Shown: positions 12,226 through 14,690 of the stretch, piece by piece | Numbering within the stretch: the stretch's first letter is position 1 | Layout of the letters: every line of letters begins with the position of its first letter | IMG/VR virus record: IMGVR_UViG_3300025889_001089 | Location: 1 to 21,687 of that record | From: a virus | Length of the DNA: 21,687 nt | Direction: 5' to 3' (one strand) | The notes under the pieces: model-generated | Seen by the model: only the letters and a program-made list of their open reading frames with translations | Database searches by the model: none | What the model was told of the DNA's origin: nothing | Position numbers and translations under genes: made by a program

Positions 12226-12239
12226 CTCCTGGCGGTTAG
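12226..12239 (-). promoter_or_regulatory. Start-associated leader CTAACCGCCAGGAG, copy 2
   Basis: On the minus strand this is identical over 14 bases to the copy on the plus strand at 12573-12586. It ends six bases before the ATG of the first leftward early gene. Confidence 0.8.
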
Positions 12240-12540: not shown

Positions 12541-12572
12541 TATATGATCTCCCTGTTGACAACCACGTCAAC

Positions 12573-12586
12573 CTAACCGCCAGGAG
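12573..12586 (+). promoter_or_regulatory. Start-associated leader CTAACCGCCAGGAG, copy 3
   Basis: This lies six bases before the ATG at 12593, is identical to copy 2, and provides the ribosome binding site of the first rightward gene. Confidence 0.8.
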
Positions 12587-12592
12587 ATCAAT

Positions 12593-12778
12593 ATGGGAAT
12601 TAAGGCCGGTACAACAATTACCGTCACTTTCGATGCACAACAAATTGCAGCACTTGATTGCATACTTCAAGATGCAGAAATGCATTTGTATCCAGATACT
12701 ATGCCAGAACACCAAAAGAGAACGCAAGAACGAGTTGTAAACATATTTCGTGCACTTCACGCTGCAGGATACCGCTAA
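12593..12778 (+). CDS. Small hypothetical protein, first gene of the rightward operon
   Basis: This 61-residue protein opens with a beta strand (GTTITVTFDAQQIAALDCIL) and then a long helix with alternating charges (PEHQKRTQERVVNIFRALHAAGYR). The design resembles small phage proteins with a ribbon-helix layout, but no family is recognised. Translation should be strong because of the conserved leader with AGGAG six bases before the ATG. The stop codon abuts directly on the 5' strand of a hammerhead ribozyme, so the transcript end of this gene is probably formed by ribozyme cleavage. Confidence 0.75.
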   Translation: MGIKAGTTITVTFDAQQIAALDCILQDAEMHLYPDTMPEHQKRTQERVVNIFRALHAAGYR

Positions 12779-12833
12779 GAGCGAAACGCTCCGCAAGGAG
12801 CGTCTGACGTTGAATGACGTCACTGATGAGCTC
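12779..12833 (+). ncRNA. Hammerhead ribozyme, type II
   Basis: Every core element is present in type II order. Stem II 5' strand is GAGC (12779-12782). The conserved GAA (12783-12785) is followed by A15.1. Stem III runs from A12786 to U12803: A-CGCUCC, GCAA tetraloop, GGAGCG-U. C12804 is the cleavage-site nucleotide. Stem I is UGACGU (12805-12810) with ACGUCA (12817-12822) around a UGAAUG loop. The core CUGAUGA is at 12823-12829, and stem II 3' strand is GCUC (12830-12833). All stems pair without mismatch. Cleavage is expected between 12804 and 12805. It lies between the stop of the small gene and the leader of the DUF932 gene, so it would split the operon mRNA. Confidence 0.88.
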
Positions 12834-12840
12834 ATCAGAT

Positions 12841-12852
12841 AACCGCTAGGAG
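12841..12852 (+). promoter_or_regulatory. Start-associated leader AACCGCTAGGAG, copy 4
   Basis: This differs by one base from the other copies and lies six bases before the ATG of the DUF932 gene. It begins seven bases after the ribozyme's last paired base, so ribozyme folding and translation initiation may influence each other. Confidence 0.75.
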
Positions 12853-12858
12853 AAATAA

Positions 12859-13821: not shown

Positions 13822-14064
13822 ATGGATTGGACAAGATTGATTTTGATCTTGTTATCAATCCCATGCGCATGGGCATTTGGGCGTTCAATATTTCGTTGGG
13901 CGCTCTATGTCTATTTTGGTGGTTATGTTGTTTTGATTTTATTATTTTTGTTAAAGAAAAAACCACCAAAGATACCAATCATACCGAAATGGTTTTTAGA
14001 TTGGTATAACAATAGGTATGTAAATAAACAAATAAATCATATGGAAAAACAATTTGATAAATAA
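13822..14064 (+). CDS. Membrane protein with one long or two short transmembrane segments
   Basis: This 80-residue protein has a hydrophobic N-terminal segment (LILILLSIPCAWAFG, residues 6-20) and a second (YVYFGGYVVLILLFLL, about 29-44), then a very basic tail (KKKPPKIPIIPKW) that should face the cytoplasm. The ATG lies three bases beyond the DUF932 stop but has only a weak ribosome binding site, so it probably depends on reinitiation. An overlapping ORF in another frame begins five bases later and is considered a shadow. The function is unknown. It is the last gene before the bidirectional terminator. Confidence 0.65.
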   Translation: MDWTRLILILLSIPCAWAFGRSIFRWALYVYFGGYVVLILLFLLKKKPPKIPIIPKWFLDWYNNRYVNKQINHMEKQFDK

Positions 14065-14068
14065 AAAA

Positions 14069-14104
14069 AACCCCTGCTTTTTACGGCAGGGGTTATTTTT
14101 TTTT
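14069..14104. terminator. Bidirectional intrinsic terminator
   Basis: AACCCCTGC (14069-14077) pairs with GCAGGGGTT (14086-14094) across an eight-base loop. The right side continues into A and then nine T residues; the left side is an eight-A run, which gives a U-tract on the minus strand. It separates the convergent rightward operon and the leftward late block and should stop both. Confidence 0.93.
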
Positions 14105-14111
14105 CTATTTG

Positions 14112-14690
14112 CTAGGAGAAAGTCGATCCTTTTACTACTATTGGCTCAGATGAGTAAACATCCCATTCACAAGCAATTTCAATCGCTCTATTTATAATTG
14201 CAGCAGCTTCATCCATGTTTTCTGCTTCGTCAATATCTAAGGCAACCATTGCTGCAGCAGCTAATGATCCTCCTGAACCTGTAAAGTAAATATTTCTTTT
14301 ATCTCTATCCCAAGAATAATCAAAATCGATTGGATAGATTAAACCATTTACAATTACTAATAGCGCTGAGTCATGATAAACTGGTGAATACTCACCCTTC
14401 ATTTCATAACCAGACTCTACAAAAATTTTGCGCATACTTGGGATAAATGTTCTAGTTATAAATTTATCCATTATTTTTACATCATTAGTTGCAGGTGGTT
14501 TTGGTGGCGTCCAACCATATTGCAAAATATTAGCACCTCGTGAAGCTCCAGCGGCAGCAATTAAGTATTTACCGACTCTAACAACTTTATCGCCTGCAAG
14601 ATCGAAGTATCTACCATTTGAATCAGTCGCGCGCGAATCAGATCCAATTACAGTCCAGCCATCACCTTGAAAAGCGGCTAGCGTTGTCAT
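14112..14690 (-). CDS. Proteasome-beta/HslV-like Ntn hydrolase
   Basis: The 192-residue protein aligns with the N-terminal threonine hydrolases. If Met1 is removed, the new Thr1 starts TTLAAF. Asp17 and Arg19 then fall in GSDSRAT exactly as in proteasome beta subunits. A Lys follows at mature position 34 (GDKVVRV), one residue from the canonical Lys33. AAAGAS matches the substrate-binding Gly47 loop, and GSGGS (residues 138-142) matches the Ser129 region. It would be a self-compartmentalising or stand-alone peptidase; no partner ATPase is seen in the window. No propeptide is present. It is the last gene of the late leftward block, overlapping the previous gene by ATGA, with GGAGG eight bases before the ATG. 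Confidence 0.82.
   Translation of the reverse strand: MTTLAAFQGDGWTVIGSDSRATDSNGRYFDLAGDKVVRVGKYLIAAAGASRGANILQYGWTPPKPPATNDVKIMDKFITRTFIPSMRKIFVESGYEMKGEYSPVYHDSALLVIVNGLIYPIDFDYSWDRDKRNIYFTGSGGSLAAAAMVALDIDEAENMDEAAAIINRAIEIACEWDVYSSEPIVVKGSTFS

Follow-up and report, generated by a model that had tools for sequence, protein, structure and literature searches.

The window, a stretch of viral DNA of 21,687 nucleotides (IMG/VR record IMGVR_UViG_3300025889_001089), contains in a three-gene plus-strand operon flanked by minus-strand genes a real hammerhead ribozyme that is a new bistable variant, the purpose of which we infer. The assignment of 12779-12833 to the type II hammerheads is, on the sequence, close to certain, with self-cleavage as the predicted activity. 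The tail at its 3' end, CAUCAG, is the exact complement of the core nucleotides C3 to G8 (CUGAUG, 12823-12828), forming a helix flush with stem I, and there is very little doubt that this core-tail hairpin is under selection. Somewhat probable is the wider proposal that the hammerhead processes the three-gene phage transcript with its catalytic strand used twice.

All bases of the hammerhead core are present (C3 U4 G5 A6 N7 G8 A9, G12 A13 A14 A15.1, U16.1 H17), and the layout is that of type II, with loop-closed stems I and III, an open stem II and lengths of 6, 4 and 7 bp for stems I, II and III (Table 1). The core motifs, the three paired stems in type II order and the GCAA loop are each found where the initial annotation of this DNA had placed them, equally as its position directly behind the stop codon of one gene and ahead of the leader of the next. 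Its expectation that such an arrangement would rarely arise by accident agrees with 400 dinucleotide shuffles of the window, which gave no equally good hammerhead match and 11 loose ones. The Infernal search it had proposed (cmscan, 401 nt versus all families) returned a match over the full RF02276 model (Hammerhead_II; 33.1 bits, E 4.6e-5), which falls short of the 37-bit gathering score, so that at the default threshold no RF02276 match is reported. The Rfam gathering threshold is a conservative curated model cut-off and not a structural feature. Applied to eight contigs that hold dozens of hammerheads, this cut-off finds two and none with the tail; the threshold thus misses members of the tail class. 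No other Rfam family reached its threshold in the window either. On inspection, a pseudoknot of at least 4 bp between loop I and the tail is absent from the window element, which offers at most 3 nt (AUG/CAU or UGA/UCA). Sequence, Rfam score and conservation together back the type II class, the predicted cleavage site and the product ends given previously, including a predicted 54-nt 5'-hydroxyl leader of the DUF932 gene (12805-12858).

Table 1. Features of the hammerhead and its operon in the window
Feature	Position	Strand	Remarks
Tentative -10 box of the operon promoter, TATGAT	12543..12548	+	Read by eye; position as in sister leaders
Hairpin GTTGAC-AACCAC-GTCAAC	12555..12572	+	At the putative 5' end of the operon transcript; AGGAG follows after 9 nt
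Upstream small gene, 61 aa	12593..12778	+	No family; stop TAA 12776-12778 touches the ribozyme
Type II hammerhead ribozyme	12779..12833	+	RF02276 match, descriptor, conservation in 35/36 checked relatives
Stem II 5' strand, GAGC	12779..12782	+	Pairs with GCTC 12830-12833, 4 bp
Core G12 A13 A14 A15.1 (GAAA)	12783..12786	+	
Stem III, 7 bp	12786..12803	+	ACGCTCC 12786-12792 / GGAGCGT 12797-12803, GCAA loop 12793-12796
C17, predicted cleavage 12804/12805	12804..12804	+	Based on hammerhead anatomy
Stem I hairpin, 6 bp	12805..12822	+	TGACGT 12805-12810 / ACGTCA 12817-12822; would be the 5' end of the downstream product
Core C3-A9, CUGAUGA (CTGATGA)	12823..12829	+	N7 is 12827
Core-complementary tail CAUCAG	12833..12838	+	Pairs with 12823-12828; covariation, tail-free samples, folding
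Spacer ATAACCGCT and Shine-Dalgarno AGGAG	12839..12852	+	Leader common to promoter-born transcripts
DUF932 gene, 319 aa	12859..13818	+	PF06067, phrog_1221
80-aa gene	13822..14064	+	Last gene of the operon
Strong intrinsic terminator	14069..14104	+	Usable from either strand; ends the operon

What the initial annotation overlooked is the core-complementary tail, an unusual feature that changes how the element must work. Core and tail together constitute the palindrome CTGATGAGCTCATCAG (12823-12838), a competing hairpin of 6 bp with the loop AGCU, and because the tail is complementary to the core, formation of this hairpin destroys the active site. In predicted folding by nearest-neighbour energies, which takes in no tertiary contacts, the core-tail hairpin reaches almost full probability in the complete RNA of the window with stem II pairing at about 0, as compared to 0.96-0.99 for stem II in an RNA ending at 12833. 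Of 207 members among the matches listed, 194 are predicted to favour the refolded over the active state while still uncut, with a mean difference of 1.6 kcal/mol; for the 3' product, folding assigns the core-tail hairpin a gain of 6.5 kcal/mol. A second competing helix predicted for the window, AGCG 12780-12783 with CGCU 12843-12846, was discarded as it is lost in relatives.

An alignment of 73 distinct members among the matches listed shows covariation in stem II (42 double changes in one pair) and in stems I and III as well, while the N7 core-tail pair is C-G in 36, U-A in 34, U-G in 3 and broken in none; the RNAalifold consensus of these 73 members is the refolded state. As the alignment was chosen by the tail pattern, its five invariant core-tail pairs are uninformative, and information comes from N7 and from samples drawn free of the tail alone. 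With stem II covarying alongside N7 and the tail, both the active and the refolded state appear to be selected.

Within the CUGANGA strand of the core, N7 alone is unconstrained, and as catalysis dictates the remaining core bases, variation is limited to one core-tail pair out of six. Core and following sequence read CUGAUGAGNNCAUCAG in all 35 DUF932-linked hammerheads, and hammerhead-like strings with this tail occur in at least 120 stretches of an IMG/VR scan. A U7 with a tail partner other than A is found in nine stretches of the whole IMG/VR collection, while N7 other than U accompanies the tail in at least 120, nearly all of those listed being C7 with G; a purine at N7 combined with the UCAG tail gave three IMG/VR matches, none of them with hammerhead stems. 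Stem-filtered hammerheads with an xUCAG tail carry, among the matches listed, U-A in 101, C-G in 81, U-G in 5 and U-U in 2 cases at N7 and its partner, with no further combination, and the association amounts to a Fisher p of 6e-47 in a near-identical earlier set, equally among the matches listed. In short-loop hammerheads without UCAG, the base at the partner position is A in 79/104 with U7 and in 63/91 with C7, and G in 8/91 with C7. Since A thus prevails there whatever the identity of N7, the decisive fact is that C7 is accompanied by G in 81 of 81 cases when UCAG is present, among the matches listed. A scan of bacterial genomes yielded four structural members and 90 chance matches; the latter, retained as a control, display no N7-tail correlation.

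In a sample of 118 hammerheads chosen regardless of the tail, with a pattern that fixed the fourth stem II base as C and thereby left out some members with a 3-bp stem II, core-tail helices of at least 5 bp occur in 23, compared with 3.6 expected from shuffles; all six pairs are found in 6/118, and the tail class is thus a minority of type II hammerheads. Two tail-blind samples contain 48 such helices, of which 43 have C3 itself as their first paired base, directly against stem I. Loop lengths range between 3 and 9 nt, and registers that had not been queried, such as CUGAC-GAG-GUCAG and CUGAU-GAG-AUCAG, are included. Both the U7/A and the C7/G version are present within each of six contigs. 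That N7 covaries with a base outside the ribozyme indicates that a second, mutually exclusive fold is under selection. One contig (L154, 1772-6064) possesses seven type II hammerheads, tail-type and pseudoknot-type members alternating before similar Shine-Dalgarno leaders; as both types serve neighbouring genes, the tail is not indispensable. Tail-type hammerheads have also been observed in the bacterial assemblies L403, L446 (Acidobacteria MAG) and L459 (Rhodobacteraceae MAG), perhaps in prophages.

The genomic association of the ribozyme is equally conserved. Two IMG/VR searches with the DUF932 protein gave 28 and 41 loci, mostly with 52-64% identity over most of the length, and the upstream DNA was checked for 36 relatives. 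The hammerhead is kept in 35 of these at no more than 3 nt from the upstream stop codon, with an invariant core and compensatory substitutions in all three stems, downstream of genes for at least eight unrelated proteins. Retained despite such varied upstream genes, the ribozyme travels with DUF932 while the preceding gene is exchanged; the border between exchanged and conserved sequence coincides with the 5' edge of the hammerhead (12776-12779, the same junction in 35 relatives), which therefore may act as a recombination joint. In the single exception (L491), DUF932 heads its unit, and a promoter-like sequence with a hairpin, CAGC-AACCAC-GCUG (930-1020), occupies the place of the hammerhead, a natural swap of ribozyme for promoter. 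DNA similarity to the locus was not found in cultured phages, and Mufasa8, the one examined of the cultured phages with a distant DUF932 homologue (about 30% identity), is without a hammerhead. The initial annotation had considered location and partner genes as perhaps new; the fixed link of hammerhead and DUF932 is indeed new in detail, whereas hammerheads at phage and prophage gene borders are already known (PMC3088659). The succession of stop codon, type II hammerhead and start codon is the usual layout, as 297 of 469 hammerheads, compared to 20 of 469 random positions, start within 6 nt of a stop codon.

In the window, the hammerhead ends 25 nt upstream of the DUF932 start codon. A consensus promoter scan of the operon called no -10 box. 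An HslV-like peptidase gene (phrog_1040; 14112-14690, minus strand) adjoins the operon, and a gene for a WhiB transcription factor (PF02467) is located at 2192-2467 on the minus strand. This WhiB gene, together with best DUF932 matches among cultured phages in Arthrobacter phages, suggests that the host of the phage is probably actinobacterial.

A possible role of the core-tail hairpin emerges from the leaders of the window's phage group. Those without a ribozyme show a -10-like box (read by eye), a gap of about 5 nt and a 6-7 bp hairpin, from which AGGAG is almost always separated by 9-12 nt; the core-tail hairpin of the same phage group, with 6 bp and a loop of 4, lies 7-11 nt before AGGAG. 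Thus, with transcription starts placed by sequence features, promoter-born mRNAs of this group appear to carry a similar leader at their 5' end. Outside the group, a median of 9 nt separates the core-tail hairpin from the Shine-Dalgarno sequence and a median of 21 nt from the start codon. The group leader, a hairpin with a loop such as AACC or AACCAC followed by CTAACCGCCAGGAG, is seen in the window at 12555-12586 (plus strand) and at 12235 and 8262 (minus strand), and in contigs L002-L497; it is likely a common 5' UTR element.

Integrating these observations, the following course of events can be envisaged. Stem II would close during transcription and the ribozyme, to judge from its anatomy, would cut between 12804 and 12805, leaving the mRNA of the small gene with the stem III hairpin and a cyclic phosphate at its 3' end. 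The tail would then pair with core C3-G8, a pairing supported by covariation and a timing that is presumed, whereby stem II would be broken, the upstream product released and religation prevented. The DUF932 mRNA would be left with a 5'-hydroxyl at the foot of stem I, the core-tail hairpin attached without a linker, 9 nt and the Shine-Dalgarno sequence. As the hairpin after cleavage would abut stem I with no free base, the mRNA would start with two adjoining helices, which might reach about the edge of the initiating ribosome, would be in keeping with a stable 5' end and would stand in the way of religation. Natural hammerheads can religate, and for a full-length hammerhead a ligation rate raised 2000-fold over minimal ones is cited in PMC6155905. 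The likely gain would be that an internal gene receives a stable, standard 5' end. Whether the core-tail hairpin acts as such a leader and ratchet we judge to be an even question, and equally balanced is the generalization to widespread self-erasing hammerheads, whose core, either following cleavage or in place of it, would be converted into a leader hairpin for the mRNA downstream, in substitution for a promoter. Uncut RNA would refold likewise and be locked off, which would make cleavage a single co-transcriptional chance; with the same fold predicted for uncut RNA, cleavage is probably confined to the interval between stem II and tail synthesis. Given published maximum hammerhead rates of about 100 to 1000 per minute (PMC6155905), cleavage within that interval is possible, not certain.

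This uncertainty turns an off-switch or timer into a serious rival, which we hold to be possible, if doubtful. Here, the core-tail hairpin would act mainly before cleavage by trapping the ribozyme as soon as the tail is synthesized, leaving only a defined fraction of transcripts to be cut, as determined by polymerase speed, pausing, magnesium, temperature or a protein. The predicted loss of stem II pairing in the presence of the tail (from 0.96-0.99 for RNA ending at 12833 to about 0) and the favoured refolded state before cleavage in 194/207 of the matches listed (mean 1.6 kcal/mol) speak for such a function; indeed, as the complete uncut RNA is predicted to be almost wholly inactive, actual cleavage might be weak and the tail might act chiefly as an off-switch. 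These near-equal energies, however, leave out tertiary contacts that favour the active fold, no conserved aptamer-like element accompanies the ribozyme (a conserved aptamer domain for riboswitch or ligand control was not seen in the leaders of the 36 DUF932 relatives), and the leader-like hairpin position as well as the replacement by a promoter and hairpin in L491 argue for a function in the product. An unlikely reading has the tail as a tertiary contact of the active ribozyme comparable to the loop I-tail pseudoknot, its match to the core being secondary. The tails of long-loop type II hammerheads do pair with loop I (PMC3088659), a feature of the majority and not of all type II hammerheads, and A prevails at this tail position also where the tail motif is absent. 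Loop I-tail complementarity of at least 4 nt is, nevertheless, seen in 21% of the tail class versus 16% in shuffles, and the pairing of C7 with G would be left unexplained. For members derived from a different pattern, mostly with long loops, the corresponding values are 71% versus 36% in shuffles. A loop I-tail pseudoknot as the cause of tail conservation was accordingly rejected, with the tail class near the shuffle level.

The tail complementarity might also be without a role in a plain gene-border hammerhead that splits polycistronic RNA of the phage into mRNAs of one gene each. Gene borders are indeed where most type II hammerheads of phages are situated, the majority lacking a complete tail, and hammerhead clusters near prophage genes are known (PMC3088659); the covariation of N7 with the tail, the flush C3 register and controls that lack the correlation make this account quite unlikely. 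Most improbable is a DNA operator, according to which CTGATGAGCTCATCAG, being palindromic and upstream of a gene, would be a protein-binding DNA site that has nothing to do with RNA folding. A loop length that ranges over 3-9 nt while one arm stays anchored at stem I, the retention of U-G wobbles and central bases that obey stem II pairing and not symmetry all argue against it.

The function of bacterial and phage hammerheads has been termed an open question (PMC6155905). The double design, with the core as enzyme strand and as hairpin arm, recurs in hundreds of phage ribozymes, and the covariation of N7 and tail offers a sharp and cheap mutational handle on what phage hammerheads are for. If the leader reading is true, phages would use ribozymes to give internal operon genes standard, promoter-like 5' ends; if hammerheads are self-erasing, one strand would be first an enzyme and then a 5' UTR. 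Furthermore, the element offers synthetic biology a natural blueprint for one-shot, irreversible processing of RNA.

Type II hammerheads in prophage gene clusters, including the loop I-tail pseudoknot, have been described in 2011, and the window element shares with these (RF02276; Perreault et al., 2011, PMC3088659) the core, the permutation and the intergenic place in phages, often with several in a row. In contrast to the known type II consensus with its pseudoknot, it has a short loop I, a tail complementing the core and a covarying N7; nothing of the kind of a core-complementary tail is described in the searched text of PMC3088659, and a literature search that reached few subscription papers found no mention of it. 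In cultured phages, four short queries of low sensitivity led, in the matches opened, to pseudoknot-type or unrelated sequences only. The Streptomyces phages Celia (L504) and Janus (L499) contain unannotated runs of pseudoknot-type hammerheads and, being cultured, are convenient laboratory subjects. Their hammerheads are likewise found between successive genes near stop and start codons, but possess a long loop I and a stem II of 3-4 bp, with no core-complementary tail in those examined. Bistable RNAs such as riboswitch expression platforms and attenuators equally employ two exclusive helices with one common strand, both selected, whereas in the window element the common strand is the catalytic core of a ribozyme, with no known ligand. 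Closest in form are the promoter-proximal leader hairpins of the same phage group, alike in their 6-7 bp, their distance of about 9-12 nt before AGGAG and the AACCGCCAGGAG leader; these would owe their 5'-triphosphate to the transcription start, whereas the DUF932 leader would be created by ribozyme cleavage.
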